From positions 1 to 22,763 of IMG/VR virus record IMGVR_UViG_3300008120_000598: a stretch of DNA of 22,763 bases; one strand, given 5' to 3'. The stretch comes from a virus. Shown here in pieces: positions 8,228-21,390 of this stretch. How positions within the stretch are numbered: the stretch's first letter is position 1; every line of letters starts with the position of its first letter. The position numbers were made by a program, and so were the translations under genes. The notes under the pieces were generated by a model, which was not told the DNA's origin, searched no databases, and saw only the letters and a program-made list of their open reading frames with translations.

Positions 8228-8953
8228 ATGGCTTTACCAAAACTTGATATACCAACCTATGAAATTGAATTACCAATTTCTAAAAAGAAAATAAAATTTC
8301 GGCCGTTTCTTGTAAAAGAACAGCGTAATCTGTTAATGGCATTGGAATCAAATGAGACCAGCACCGTTCAACAAAACATTCGTGATATTCTTAACAATTG
8401 CACATTGACTGAGAATGTTGATATTGATAAGTTACCCATTATCGATATTGAATATTATTTTATCAACCTTCGTGCCAAATCAGTTGGTGAGGTTGTAGAA
8501 ACTCGTTATCGTTGCAACAATATTGTCAATGATACTGAGTGTAATAATGTTATGGAAACAAATATCAATCTACAGAATATTAAAGTATTACAAGATAAGT
8601 CAATTGATCCTGAGATTAAGGTAACACCTAAGATTACTATCAAACTGAAGTATCCAGAGTTTGGTGTTGTCAAAGATTCATTAAAGTATGACGATATTAA
8701 TCAAGTGACCTTTAACATGATTGCAAGTAGTATTGAATACATCTATGATGGCGAACAGTTCTACTATGGTCATGAAACATCACCAGAAGAAATGTTACAG
8801 TTTGTTGAAAGTCTTAATGCTGAACAGTTTAAGAAAATTGAAGAATTCTTTGAGAATTTACCAAAACTAAAAGAAAATGTTAATATCACCTGTGGTAAGT
8901 GTGGATATCACCACACGATAGAGGTGGAAGGGTTAGAGAATTTTTTCGGTTAA
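8228..8953 (+). CDS. 26: gp26-type baseplate hub/tail assembly protein
   Basis: 241 residues, SD GGAG eight bases before the ATG. It matches the T4 gp26-type baseplate family (T4_baseplate): MALPKLDIPTYEIELPIS, then FRPFLVKEQRNLLMALES and a conserved helical middle. Four cysteines, C96, C105, C222 and C225 (the last two in Cys-Gly-Lys-Cys-Gly-Tyr-His-His), could form a zinc site, which I infer. The frame ends Glu-Asn-Phe-Phe-Gly-stop directly after a T-TTT-TTC slippery heptamer. A -1 slip there would extend the protein to 303 residues through the following ORF. The gene lies directly upstream of the long tail proteins, the place where tail assembly chaperones sit in other long-tailed phages. 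Confidence 0.9.
   Translation: MALPKLDIPTYEIELPISKKKIKFRPFLVKEQRNLLMALESNETSTVQQNIRDILNNCTLTENVDIDKLPIIDIEYYFINLRAKSVGEVVETRYRCNNIVNDTECNNVMETNINLQNIKVLQDKSIDPEIKVTPKITIKLKYPEFGVVKDSLKYDDINQVTFNMIASSIEYIYDGEQFYYGHETSPEEMLQFVESLNAEQFKKIEEFFENLPKLKENVNITCGKCGYHHTIEVEGLENFFG
8941..8947 (+). promoter_or_regulatory. Canonical -1 frameshift slippery heptamer T-TTT-TTC
   Basis: In the gp26 frame the codons are AAT-TTT-TTC-GGT-TAA, so T-TTT-TTC is in exact X-XXY-YYZ register six bases before the stop. After slipping back one base, both tRNAs re-pair on TTT and TTT. An SD-like GGAAGGG (8926-8932) lies eight bases upstream, comparable with the stimulator of E. coli dnaX. A weak hairpin (AACGA-loop-TCGTT, about 8988-9002) lies downstream. 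Confidence 0.75.
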
Positions 8954-9138
8954 TATTTCGTCATGACAATCTGAGTAATTATTATAAAACGAATTTTTCG
9001 TTGATGCAGCACCATAAGTATAGCTTGACCGAACTTGAAAACATGATGCCTTGGGAAAGAGATATCTATATCTCTCTTTTGATACAATATATTGAAGATG
9101 AAAATCAAAAGATAAAAGAAAGACAAAAGAAGCGATAG
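8941..9138 (+). CDS. -1 frame extension of gp26 (possible gp51-like or chaperone segment)
   Basis: The -1 frame continues open from the slippery site to TAG 9136. It encodes about 63 residues beyond gp26: Arg-Leu-Ile-Phe-Arg-His-Asp-Asn..., LMQHHKYSLTELENMMPWER, Asp-Ile-Tyr-Ile-Ser-Leu-Leu-Ile, and a charged helical tail. The Tyr-Ser-Leu-Thr-Glu-Leu-Glu-Asn-Met-(Met)-Pro-Trp-Glu-Arg run is of the type seen in short ORFs after gp26 in related phages. No ATG precedes the likely conserved part. The first ATG (9004) would cut it, and the only earlier start is GTG 8899 inside gp26. Translation by frameshift, giving a gp26 fusion, is therefore the more economical reading. Independent GTG initiation remains possible. 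Confidence 0.75.
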   Translation, partial: FFRLIFRHDNLSNYYKTNFSLMQHHKYSLTELENMMPWERDIYISLLIQYIEDENQKIKERQKKR

Positions 9139-10680
9139 ATGGATTATCAAAAGGCCAAAGAAATAAGAGGCAAATCTCTTAGCTCTCTCATCACCGATAA
9201 GATTGTTGGTGGTGAAGGAGTTATGTCGTCCATTCGCCAGTCAATGTCAGAAAGAAGTAAGGCTCGTGCTACTGGTATCAAAGAAAAATTTGACCCACTA
9301 AACATAGTCAAAGCACTCACAGGTGGTTCTCGTGTTGCACCTGCCATTCTTGGTCGTTTAACTGGTAGAAGTCCAGAAGCCATTCGATATTTTGCTGGCG
9401 ATCCAAAGAAAAAACAAATGTCATCTGGTATCAGTTCTGAAGATTTACAAGGTGCCACCGAAACTCTTGGTTCCATTTATGCTCTCATGGTAAAAATAGA
9501 AGAAGAAAAAAAACAAGATGAAAAAAATAATGCTCGTAAACAAAAAACAGAGCAAAAAGAAGAAGATGACCGAAATAAAGTATTAATCAAAGCATTAACT
9601 GCACGAATGAAACCAAAGAAACGTGCCAAAGAAGAAAAGAAACAAGAACAAGAACAAAAAAACACCGAACAGAAACAAGAGCAGACACAAAAAAAGACCG
9701 AGAAAAAACAAGAAGGTCAAGAAAAGAAAAAAGAAAAAGAAGTAAAAAAAGAACAAGAAGTTAAAAAAGAAACAATTAAGAAGGCTGAAGAAAAAAAGCC
9801 TGAAATTGTTCCACCAAAAGAAGTAAAACCTAAACCTACTGCAAAGCCAGAAGCACCACCAGCTGTCAAACCTCCAACAGCCGCAAAGATTCCACCTGTA
9901 GTGGTGAGTGGTACAAAAGGTTTAGTTTTGGGTGCTTTAGTTGCTGCCGGTTATTCTAAACAAGCACAGGCCAATGTAATGGCCAATGTGGATAAAGAAT
10001 CAAATTTTAAACCAAGAAGTGAAGAACTTGGTAAATACTCAGCAAAAACATTATTCAAGTTATATGGACCTCCTGGTGTACCAGATGGCCAGCCAGCCGA
10101 TGGTAAAAATAAAGTTCGATTTCAATCTATGAGTGAAGCACAGGCGGTTGTGAGTAAAGGACCTGAAGCTGTAGGTGATGTTATCTATGGTGGTCGTATG
10201 GGTAATGATAAACCAGGTGATGGTTTTAAATATCGTGGCCGTGGTTTCATACAGATTACAGGTAAAGAAAACTATGACAAAGTTGGTAAATTGATTGGTG
10301 TTGATTTAGTAAACAATCCTGATTTAGCCAATGATCCCGAAGTTGCTGCAAAAATTGTACCGGCATTCTTTAAGTTACGATTAAAGAAACCAGAAGATTT
10401 AGAAAATATTGATGCAGTGAACAAAGCGGTAGGATCTGCTAGTGTGCAGTCAAGAGAAGATAGAAAAAAACTGGCTGTTGCATATGCCGCTGAGTTAAAT
10501 ACTGGTAATCAACTCAGTGCATCTTCTACTGAAAATAGAGAACTGAAAAAGAATATGACGGATTCTGCACCGGCTCCAGTTATTGTAAATAATAACAATA
10601 CAACTCAAACAAAGAAACAAACACCTATGCCACCACCTGCAGGTGATGATAGATCCGCATATGCAAAGAAAGTAAACTAA
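9139..10680 (+). CDS. Tail protein with GH19-type muralytic domain
   Basis: 513 residues, starting directly after the TAG of the previous ORF. Residues 1-88 are a conserved head domain (FDPLNIVKALTGG, LGRLTGR) shared with the next gene. Residues 115-235 are an extreme Lys/Glu/Gln-rich run, probably a coiled or extended linker, followed by a Pro/Lys stretch to about 255. Residues 258-455 resemble GH19 chitinase/lysozyme domains: Val-Met-Ala-Asn-Val-Asp-Lys-Glu-Ser-Asn-Phe with candidate catalytic Glu287, then KYRGRGFIQITGKENYDKVG (364-383) and NNPDLANDPEVAAK. The last 45 residues are Asn/Thr/Pro-rich. The location suggests a tail component that opens peptidoglycan during DNA entry, replacing the lysozyme missing from the gp5-type protein. 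It might be tape-measure-like. Confidence 0.85.
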   Translation: MDYQKAKEIRGKSLSSLITDKIVGGEGVMSSIRQSMSERSKARATGIKEKFDPLNIVKALTGGSRVAPAILGRLTGRSPEAIRYFAGDPKKKQMSSGISSEDLQGATETLGSIYALMVKIEEEKKQDEKNNARKQKTEQKEEDDRNKVLIKALTARMKPKKRAKEEKKQEQEQKNTEQKQEQTQKKTEKKQEGQEKKKEKEVKKEQEVKKETIKKAEEKKPEIVPPKEVKPKPTAKPEAPPAVKPPTAAKIPPVVVSGTKGLVLGALVAAGYSKQAQANVMANVDKESNFKPRSEELGKYSAKTLFKLYGPPGVPDGQPADGKNKVRFQSMSEAQAVVSKGPEAVGDVIYGGRMGNDKPGDGFKYRGRGFIQITGKENYDKVGKLIGVDLVNNPDLANDPEVAAKIVPAFFKLRLKKPEDLENIDAVNKAVGSASVQSREDRKKLAVAYAAELNTGNQLSASSTENRELKKNMTDSAPAPVIVNNNNTTQTKKQTPMPPPAGDDRSAYAKKVN

Positions 10681-11952
10681 ATGGATTACTATAAAGCACA
10701 ATCGATTCGTAAAACAGGTTTATCTGATTTAATTGCCAATGAAATCACTGGTGGTGGTAGCATTACTTCTTCTATTGGTAAAGGCATTTCACAAAAATCA
10801 TCAGCGGCTATGACTGGCCTTAAACAAAAGTTTGACCCATTAAACATTGCTAAGTTTGTAACTGGTGGTTCTAATTTAGCGCCTGCGATGTTAGGTCGTT
10901 TGACTGGTAGAAAAGAAAAAGATATTAAATTTTTTACTGGTAAAAAACAGTATGATACTGCATCAAAAATAAAACCAGTAGAATCTGGTGATGGCCTGAA
11001 TGATATTTTAGGTAAAATGTTGAACTTTATGCAAAGTATCAATGCAGCTGAAAAAGCAAGACGAGATAAAGCCAATCAGTTTGCAGAAGAAAATGCATCT
11101 GAAAAAGAAAGACGCCACAAAGAACTGATTGAAGCCATTACAGGCCAAAAATACACCGGTAAAACAGCTGCAAAAATACAAAATCCTGAATCACCTGGAG
11201 GTGGTGGTATAGTTGATGATGTTTTGTCAAGTTTAGGTTTAGCAAAGATTGCTAAATCTGCATTGAGTGGTTTAGGTAAATTGGCTACATTTGCTGTTGG
11301 TCCTGTTGGATTACCATTGCTTGCCGCAGCCGCTATTGGAGGATTTGGGTATTTCATATACAAAGCATTAAAAGAAGAACCTAGTTATGAAGCAGAACAA
11401 GAAGCCAAAGGCATAAAACAAGCAGAATCAGTTGGTGGATTGGCTGGTGTTGCTGATGAAAGAGAAAAACGCAAAGCAATGCCAGAGTATGATAGAACTA
11501 TGGCAGAGATAAAAGATTTTGAAACATATCAAAATGAAGGTGAGAAATTAACCAACAAACAACTAGAAGGATTTGGTAAAAGAGGACCAGGTGCCTTAGA
11601 GGCTGTTGAAGATTATAAAGTGGCTCGTGATAAGTATCAGAAGATTGTAGGTGAAACACCTGAGATGGTTACACCAGCATCACCGCCAGCTACTGAAAGT
11701 ATGACACCAACATCTTCACCAGCGAGTGAAGTACCAGCTACTGAACCGGCCGCAGGTGCAAAACTCAGCCAAGTTCAAAGTGAAAATATGAATCTCAATA
11801 TACCCGAAAGTAAAGAAGATCCATCTTCTATTATCAATAACAATTCAGTTAAAAGTTATGCAGAGGGTGGCGGAAAGATTCCAATGCCTGCGGTGAGAAA
11901 TCAAGAACCAACATTTCAAGATATGATATTATACAGTACCAGAGTTGTATAA
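10681..11952 (+). CDS. Paralogous tail protein with central membrane-like segment
   Basis: 423 residues, starting right after the stop of the GH19 tail gene. Residues 1-88 align without gaps to the head of that protein, with about half identical by eye (MDYxKAxxIR, KFDPLNIxK, LGRLTGR). The rest differs: a charged helix at 120-155, a Gly/Pro hinge near 170, then a hydrophobic Ala/Gly-rich stretch at about 202-229 (ATFAVGPVGLPLLAAAAIGG, then Phe-Gly-Tyr-Phe-Ile-Tyr), a second charged region, and a Pro/Thr/Ser-rich tail ending at 423. There is no enzymatic motif. A membrane-active stretch inside a tail protein fits a tape-measure or injected-protein role, which is inference. A strong terminator follows 11 bases after the stop. 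Confidence 0.82.
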   Translation: MDYYKAQSIRKTGLSDLIANEITGGGSITSSIGKGISQKSSAAMTGLKQKFDPLNIAKFVTGGSNLAPAMLGRLTGRKEKDIKFFTGKKQYDTASKIKPVESGDGLNDILGKMLNFMQSINAAEKARRDKANQFAEENASEKERRHKELIEAITGQKYTGKTAAKIQNPESPGGGGIVDDVLSSLGLAKIAKSALSGLGKLATFAVGPVGLPLLAAAAIGGFGYFIYKALKEEPSYEAEQEAKGIKQAESVGGLAGVADEREKRKAMPEYDRTMAEIKDFETYQNEGEKLTNKQLEGFGKRGPGALEAVEDYKVARDKYQKIVGETPEMVTPASPPATESMTPTSSPASEVPATEPAAGAKLSQVQSENMNLNIPESKEDPSSIINNNSVKSYAEGGGKIPMPAVRNQEPTFQDMILYSTRVV

Positions 11953-15346: not shown

Positions 15347-15405
15347 ACTTTCACTCCTGTGTGTGTTAATGTGTGTAATGTATCAGCGGTTTGTGTGTTG
15401 CTGAT

Positions 15406-15417
15406 ATATTATTTATC
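15406..15417 (-). promoter_or_regulatory. Late-promoter-like motif GATAAATA
   Basis: GATAAATAATAT on the minus strand, 60-70 bases before ATG 15346, resembles the T4 late core TATAAATA. It follows the tmRNA coding piece directly and could start a late transcript for the 90-residue protein, SleB, gp33 and gp59. Motif evidence only. Confidence 0.4.
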
Positions 15418-15446
15418 CAGGTGATTCTGTTGCTAAGTTCACCTGG
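15417..15446 (-). other. Hairpin at the 3' side of the tmRNA coding piece
   Basis: CCAGGTGA / TCACCTGG, an 8-bp perfect stem with a 14-base loop, begins about 19 bases after the tag stop. It may be the terminal stem of the coding piece or a 3' end protector. No U-tract follows. Confidence 0.6.
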
Positions 15447-15464
15447 TGAAACTCCGCTTACCTA

Positions 15465-15497
15465 TCAGGCAGCAAGTGCAAACTTATTATCGTTAGC
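15465..15497 (-). other. tmRNA tag reading frame (ANDNKFALAA)
   Basis: GCT at 15497 is the likely resume codon. Eleven codons read Ala-Asn-Asp-Asn-Lys-Phe-Ala-Leu-Ala-Ala-stop (TGA at 15465). The Ala-Asn-Asp start and Ala-Leu-Ala-Ala end are the SmpB/SspB- and ClpXP-type recognition ends of bacterial SsrA tags. The phenylalanine-containing middle resembles betaproteobacterial tags. Confidence 0.93.
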
Positions 15498-15583
15498 GTT
15501 TAATTTAATTAGTGATTACGCCTTCTCTGGCGATTCTCCATTGTTCTAATTATTGCCATGTCGAATCTAGGCACCCCCATCAG

Positions 15584-15645
15584 AAGTATATTGCCACAAC
15601 TATAATGTGTGTTTGCTACCGATAACTCGGTTTGTCAATATACTT
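15584..15645 (-). repeat. Inverted repeat in the tmRNA intervening segment
   Basis: AAGTATATTG (15584-15593) and CAATATACTT (15636-15645) are perfect complements. They lie between the mature CCA end (15647) and the mature 5' G (15578). They would stack on the acceptor stem in the precursor and present both ends for tRNA-type processing. A small CCGA/TCGG hairpin lies in the loop. Confidence 0.9.
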
Positions 15646-15706
15646 TTGGTGGAGGTGGTGGGAATCGCACCCACGTCCACAACAACTTTGAAACAACTTC
15701 TACGAA

Positions 15707-15817
15707 TTACTTCAATACAAAAAGCATTGCAAACACAGCCAATGCAAAAGCACAGGCACCAGTATAAAATGCAAAACTTTTTACTTTAACTTGTCTTACA
15801 CAATCTTTGCTAGGCAT
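15707..15817 (-). CDS. 36-residue single-span membrane protein
   Basis: ATG 15817 overlaps the TAA of the preceding small ORF (TAATG), with an AAGGAT SD about eight bases upstream. The product starts MPSKDCVRQVKVK (basic, cytoplasmic side likely) and continues with a membrane span of about 21 residues (SFAFYTGACAFALAVFAMLF). Its stop lies at the start of the tmRNA acceptor piece, so it should be cotranscribed with the tmRNA. Function is unknown. Holin or another lysis or membrane peptide is conceivable because of the nearby SleB hydrolase. The same frame is open further upstream to an ATG at 15931, but that start overlaps the 41-residue ORF and lacks an SD. Confidence 0.6.
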   Translation of the reverse strand: MPSKDCVRQVKVKSFAFYTGACAFALAVFAMLFVLK

Positions 15818-19920: not shown

Positions 19921-21390
19921 TTAATTGGTTACTTCTGTATTTATACCATCGGCCAATCGTGACTTTCCGTAGACTTCCACACCTTCAATCTCGCCAATTT
20001 TTTCACTTACTACTTTGATTGGTATAATCTTTTTCTTTGGTTCTTCTTTGTGTTCATATACGGTACCCCAAATATCTTGGCGTTCCAATGGTAATTCTGG
20101 ATGTTTGATTAATACAGGAATATAACCTGTCATACGAGCCAGAGCTACAGCAAAGAGAGCCACATTGTCTGAATAGGAGTTGGCACATGATATATCCCAA
20201 AACTTTTTATCTAAGAACATACAGGCACCTTTACACAGGTGCAATACAGGACATTTAGGACATTCTTTACGATTTGACCAATGGGTTGAGGTTTTAATCT
20301 CAACCTTATCGAATTCTTTTAGATTACCACCATGATGTGATTCACCATTTTTACCTATCTCTAGAGCACTTACGTTCTGACAGGTCATTACATTACCACG
20401 CAAATCAACTGCCATAACGTGTTCATCATCCATGCCACATTTTTGTCCAAGATATTTTGATTCTGAGTGAGATAGAACTGCCTGAGTAAAACCATCTATC
20501 TTACCTAATTGACCAAAGAAACCAATTTGACCATTGGTTACATAAATGTCTGAGAAGGCTGTTTTGCGGTAATCAAAGTGTTCAGCTTTGGTCTGTAAAC
20601 TATTCTGCATACCATCTTCATCATAACTATCTACAATACCACCTTCACCAAGTTTAATATCAGGATCACCGGTAAGATTGACGAACCACTCATAGATTTC
20701 TTTACGAGATTTGTTTTTAGAATTCATCATTGGATTAAAACTGATACCTTTACCCAAACGGGACATAGCACGATAGAAATCTAAAATGATTTTCTTTTGG
20801 TCTGGATCATCAAACGGATCAGGACCACGAACTGATTGACCAGGTCCATCATGTGAGATTGATACAGAAAAATCCATCATCATCAACCAATCACAAATAT
20901 CTGGTGTAAGAATAGAACCATTAGTAATTACAGAGAATCGTGGTTTATTTTCCCAATGTTCAAATCGGTCACGAATGGTCTCTGCCAATGGTTTCATGGT
21001 TTTCCAATAAACAAATGGTTCACCACCCCAAAACTCAATTGAGAGTCCTTTCTTTTCATCAAACTCTAATGTATCAAACATTTCCATGAAAGCATCAATG
21101 TCTTTCTTAGATGTTTCAGGCATACGTTCAACAAACTTCTGTGAACAATAATCGCATGAGTAATTACAACTCAAACCCATTTGAATTTTGAGTATTTGAA
21201 CCTGTTTAGATTTTTTAAGTGGGTGGTCTTTGTCGAATGGACGATATGGTGTGAGATTGTGGTCGTGAATTGTGCCTTCAGGAAATTGAAAGGTAATTCC
21301 ATCTTCACTCTTTAGTATGTTTGTTTCATTATCATAATAAAATATTTTTTTATCGTTTGCACTTCGTTCAGAGTGTATTTCAAATATCAT
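19921..21390 (-). CDS. Radical SAM enzyme with SPASM domain (anSME-like)
   Basis: 489 residues. The radical SAM CX3CX2C is Cys75, Cys79, Cys82 (LSCNYSCDYCSQ), with Gly-Gly-Glu-Pro-Phe at 122-126 and a Ser-Val-Ile-Thr-Asn-Gly-Ser strand near 153. A C-terminal SPASM set fits the consensus exactly in its core: Cys318, Cys337, then Cys377-x2-Cys380-x5-Cys386-x3-Cys390, and Cys402, for two auxiliary 4Fe-4S clusters. The last 90 residues are a charged extension. This family (anaerobic sulfatase maturases, sactipeptide and related maturases) modifies residues in proteins or peptides. It is preceded within a base by a 52-residue basic protein and followed by the Cys-rich gene, which suggests a dedicated substrate. 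Confidence 0.93.
   Translation of the reverse strand: MIFEIHSERSANDKKIFYYDNETNILKSEDGITFQFPEGTIHDHNLTPYRPFDKDHPLKKSKQVQILKIQMGLSCNYSCDYCSQKFVERMPETSKKDIDAFMEMFDTLEFDEKKGLSIEFWGGEPFVYWKTMKPLAETIRDRFEHWENKPRFSVITNGSILTPDICDWLMMMDFSVSISHDGPGQSVRGPDPFDDPDQKKIILDFYRAMSRLGKGISFNPMMNSKNKSRKEIYEWFVNLTGDPDIKLGEGGIVDSYDEDGMQNSLQTKAEHFDYRKTAFSDIYVTNGQIGFFGQLGKIDGFTQAVLSHSESKYLGQKCGMDDEHVMAVDLRGNVMTCQNVSALEIGKNGESHHGGNLKEFDKVEIKTSTHWSNRKECPKCPVLHLCKGACMFLDKKFWDISCANSYSDNVALFAVALARMTGYIPVLIKHPELPLERQDIWGTVYEHKEEPKKKIIPIKVVSEKIGEIEGVEVYGKSRLADGINTEVTN

Follow-up and report, generated by a model that had tools for sequence, protein, structure and literature searches.

The gpG/gpGT pair of phage lambda arises by a -1 frameshift near the end of a chaperone gene located 5' of the tape measure gene, which adds a short C-terminal domain, and the slippery heptamer of lambda is GGGAAAG. 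T4 genes 26 and 51 are reportedly named as tail assembly chaperone (TAC) genes in the abstract of a 2022 study by Vladimirov et al. PMC3004832 classes T4 gp26 and gp51 as chaperones of hub assembly, with gp51 absent from the finished particle, and according to a 2016 review (PMC5009743) G-T frameshifting is a conserved trait of long-tailed phages "except T4". In a 2010 comparison, cyanophage gp51 had only ~20% of the usual length and gp51 was absent in Aeh1 (PMC3037559). Two papers that cite the 2022 study (Vladimirov, Gautam & Davidson, Virology 2022;566:9-15) credit it with identifying the TAC genes in T4-like phages: PMC12846349 refers to it for -1 slippery sequences of poly-T type in "TAC-N genes of T4-like phages", and PMC10274946 for separate short and long TAC genes in some T4-likes. 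The sequence-only reading of the DNA analysed here had known of no description of such a frameshift for T4-type gp26, a statement contradicted by these citing papers. On their account, the frameshift principle in T4-like phages was already published in 2022, and the site described below is a further example of a known device because that study identified the T4-like TAC genes. The phage carrying it is uncultivated.

The window (the whole 22,763-nucleotide stretch that was analysed, a 22.8-kb virus record) contains a gene 26 homologue that starts with ATG at 8228 and whose 3' end reads GAG AAT TTT TTC GGT TAA (Table 1). The -1 frame from 8947 begins CGG TTA ATA TTT and remains open for 63 codons up to a TAG, as the sequence-only reading had claimed, so that the frameshift fusion, join(8228..8947, 8947..9138), has a predicted length of 303 aa. 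That reading had also placed the T-TTT-TTC heptamer in exact register, which was correct, and six bases before the gp26 stop, which was not: three bases (GGT) separate the end of the heptamer from the stop. Judged by conservation, a programmed -1 frameshift at the end of gp26 is very likely, and in all probability the heptamer yields a short gp26 form and a long gp26-gp51 form of a tail assembly chaperone.

Table 1. Positions and supporting evidence for the gp26-gp51 junction and its neighbours in the window.
Feature	Position	Strand	Evidence
Gene 26 homologue, TAC-N form, 241 aa, zero frame	8228..8953	+	PF12322 T4_baseplate E=5.7e-62; PHROG_150 E=2e-65
GTG, -1 frame, possible independent gp51 ORF start; not conserved	8899..8901	+	upstream -1-frame start only in 15/81 clade members
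GGAAGGG, SD-like string, 8 nt 5' of heptamer; probably incidental	8926..8932	+	encodes conserved Glu-Gly
Slippery heptamer T-TTT-TTC, X_XXY_YYZ register	8941..8947	+	in-frame T-TTT-TTN in 188/194 relatives; codons synonymously invariant
-1 extension, gp51-like TAC-C domain, 63 aa, stop 9136-9138	8947..9138	+	PHROG_634 (gp51 "hub assembly catalyst" domain) E=2e-29; -1-frame-only purifying selection; hhalign T4 gp51 residues 200-244 E=5e-5
Zero-frame stop TAA, one codon past heptamer	8951..8953	+	sequence
Next ORF, 513 aa, GH19/tail-lysozyme domain, putative tape-measure/hub position	9139..10680	+	domain and PHROG matches

The bare presence of TTTTTTC in the window is no more than chance (17 copies versus 12.8 expected from shuffles); the conservation of the heptamer is more than chance. 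When the gp26 junctions of related phages were compared, a check that the sequence-only reading had proposed, all 80 of the closest IMG/VR relatives (70-100% protein identity) retained NNT TTT TTC before the gp26 stop, and the in-frame T-TTT-TTN was kept at 188 of 194 junctions spanning identical to distant relatives. The heptamer occurs in cyanophages, a pelagiphage, Vibrio schizoT4 phages, Aeh1, rhizobial phages, and Desulfovibrio phages; it is present in P-SSM2, S-PM2, S-WAM1, HTVC008M, phiM12, Mendera, phi-Grn1, Aeh1, EniLVp02, RL2RES, and SRB7757. In a set of 66 representative junctions sharing <80% nucleotide identity, the codon preceding TTT ended in T in every case (AGT, TCT, AAT, GAT, or GCT, encoding four amino acids), and the first Phe codon was always TTT. 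Elsewhere in the gene, T-ending codons make up 36-75% of the codons for those amino acids and TTT makes up 64% of Phe codons; the naive log10 P of the combined pattern is about -35, which is overstated since the lineages are related. Among 40 representatives of the window's clade, the mean synonymous identity of gp26 codon columns was 0.59, and only four columns were fully synonymously invariant, three of which were the heptamer codons.

The extension itself carries the signature of a coding sequence. In its -1 frame, 9497 synonymous and 2061 non-synonymous single-change codon differences were counted, with no stops, whereas in the other two frames the ratios were reversed and 214-240 stops appeared. 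The synonymous excess and lack of stops argue that the extension is a protein, and by these counts it evolves as one in the -1 frame only. It could be a small gp51 gene of its own, with ribosomes re-initiating or being coupled at the gp26 stop, or starting internally in an overlap with gp26; the T-run would then be incidental. Most records do give gp51 a separate annotation wherever a start is available, TAATG or TGATG junctions occur in some lineages (e.g., Vibrio K355/K469 and Mendera), and in the window the GTG at 8899 opens a 79-aa ORF in the -1 frame. Few relatives share that GTG, however, and in 66 of the 81 members of the clade the -1 frame lacks any ATG, GTG, or TTG 5' of the gp26 stop; the first start 3' of the stop mostly lies 51-54 nt in, within the conserved domain and beyond its conserved LxNYYKTNF stretch. 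The earlier view that the extension has no good start of its own therefore stands, the GTG being without an equivalent in most relatives. Separate initiation thus appears in general to be impossible, as most clade members have no usable start, and re-initiation leaves the invariant in-register heptamer unexplained. We consider a separate gp51 gene highly improbable.

An altered run length in a subset of mRNAs, produced by the polymerase slipping on the six-T run, would also give a fusion, with no ribosomal slippage involved. A run of T6-T8 is indeed found at every canonical site among the junctions analysed, but a polymerase would have only a short stretch to slip on with six T, and the run keeps strictly to the X_XXY_YYZ register, in most cases with a C at its end. 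PMC12846349, moreover, reports slippery -1 sites of poly-T type for T4-like TAC-N genes, and transcriptional slippage is extremely improbable in our estimate. A -1 ribosomal frameshift is the best route because it explains both the register of the heptamer and the absence of starts.

The programmed -1 frameshift in a lambda G/GT-like chaperone gene proposed by the sequence-only reading is thus strongly supported by comparison: the conserved heptamer, the open -1 frame with few starts, selection on both, and homology to gp26 and gp51 all point to it. From here on we infer slippage itself, its efficiency, and the chaperone role of gp26. Most ribosomes would terminate at the TAA at 8951 and release the 241-aa short form, TAC-N. 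A minority, with tRNA-Phe on TTT in the P site and on TTC in the A site of 8941-8947, would slip back by one base; both tRNAs would re-pair on TTT, and translation would resume at CGG 8947. The slipped product would be a 303-aa TAC-NC whose last 63 residues form the helical gp51 domain. If lambda gpG/gpGT is a guide, the common N-terminal part would cover the tape measure or the core of the hub, the rare C-terminal domain would recruit the tail-tube protein, and neither form would remain in the virion.

Two candidate stimulators of slippage were rejected. The SD-like GGAAGGG does lie eight bases upstream of the heptamer, as had been noted; it does not behave as a conserved stimulator, since its GGG codon varies, being swapped for GGC, GGA, or GGT in relatives, with a synonymous identity of 0.29 versus the gene mean of 0.59. 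A downstream hairpin was discarded because this region of the window folds worse than most shuffles (z = +1.0), and no compensatory pair was detected in the alignment fold downstream of the heptamer.

By anatomy, the pair corresponds to lambda G/GT-type tail assembly chaperones, with gp26 as TAC-N and gp26-gp51 as TAC-NC. As in lambda, the -1 frameshift would fall close to the 3' end of the chaperone gene and append a short C-terminal domain, 5' of a putative tape measure position; the heptamer of lambda differs from the T-TTT-TTC found here. A tube-like gene lies upstream of gp26 (PHROG_45 E=4e-40), and the tape-measure matches of the downstream ORFs were weak (E=6e-5 and 0.003). The predicted model of gp26 had a pLDDT of 87, and Foldseek paired it with the HK97 TAC 2ob9 at E=3.2 (prob 0.25); no significant match to solved proteins was obtained for the gp26 model or the gp51 domain in the structure search. 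The ORFs at 9139-10680 and 10681-11952 on the plus strand are consecutive and have paralogous N-termini (MDYxKAxxIR...FDPLNI...GRLTGR); the first carries the GH19/tail-lysozyme domain and the second has a weak tape-measure match.

T4 gp26 aligned over the entire TAC-N of the window (hhalign E=3e-16). T4 gp51 consists of a gp26-like part (PF12322, residues 1-201) followed by a C-terminal domain shared with the -1 extension (residues 200-244), and T4 gp26 and T4 gp51 matched each other by BLASTP (E=2e-6). Because the gp26-like part runs to 201 and the domain begins at 200, the domain boundary coincides with the slip site, and T4 gp51 is, as judged from these alignments, the same gp26-gp51 fusion made in frame. 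Unlike in the window, the two forms in T4, RB49, and Aes012 are divergent paralogous separate genes with no slip site, and Campylobacter phage F379 has a single-frame long form. An apparent +1 frameshift in Campylobacter phage CP21 (our locus L097, positions 1500-1540) was rejected: its relative F379 carries the gene in a single frame and CP21 departs from this by one base, which makes a mutation or a sequencing error the likelier cause.

Two related lineages have no canonical heptamer. In the kutterviruses (Ackermannviridae, Det7 and its relatives), the -1-frame gp51 domain is conserved, the junction reads GAG ATT TTC ATT TAA, and there is no start codon near the beginning of the gp51 domain; in Limestonevirus, too, the -1 frame that follows gp26 keeps the domain, at ATT TTC ATT TAA. 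The gp26-gp51 fusion could conceivably be made by more than the two known routes, with a single tRNA slipping in the P site on T-TTC, or some other unusual junction, in the kutterviruses, a possibility that we put forward tentatively and regard as rather doubtful. In the second lineage, Vibrio phages K355 and K469, CTT TTC or CTT TTT stands at the slip site and the gp26 stop overlaps an ATG in the gp51 frame (TAATG), which suggests coupled initiation instead of tandem slippage; a search of viral contigs for relatives of the K355 type found none. Only the kuttervirus and Vibrio K355 junctions may fall outside the explanation given above. Another deviation, T5 in place of T6 in a relative of Mendera (L199, 1945-1965), differs by one base from L198 and is probably an assembly or sequencing error or an isolated mutation.

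The site provides a clean case of recoding, with deep conservation, in an environmental group of T4-like phages that is abundant, and it corrects routine annotation: the two frames are left unjoined in every record inspected. In several of them (S-WAM1, Aeh1, and ORM_20), gp51 is missing from the annotation, and Aeh1 has both the heptamer and a -1-frame gp51 domain. For the cyanophages, the short "gp51" noted in the 2010 comparison (PMC3037559) makes better sense as a -1 extension of gp26.

Two further features of the window lie on the minus strand. A permuted two-piece tmRNA of betaproteobacterial type occupies 15402-15756 (RF04321, 119 bits; RF01850, 97 bits), with the tag ANDNKFALAA according to ARAGORN; its type may hint at a betaproteobacterial host. 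A 489-aa ORF at 19921-21390 has cysteine motifs that, by eye, resemble those of a radical SAM/SPASM-type protein.
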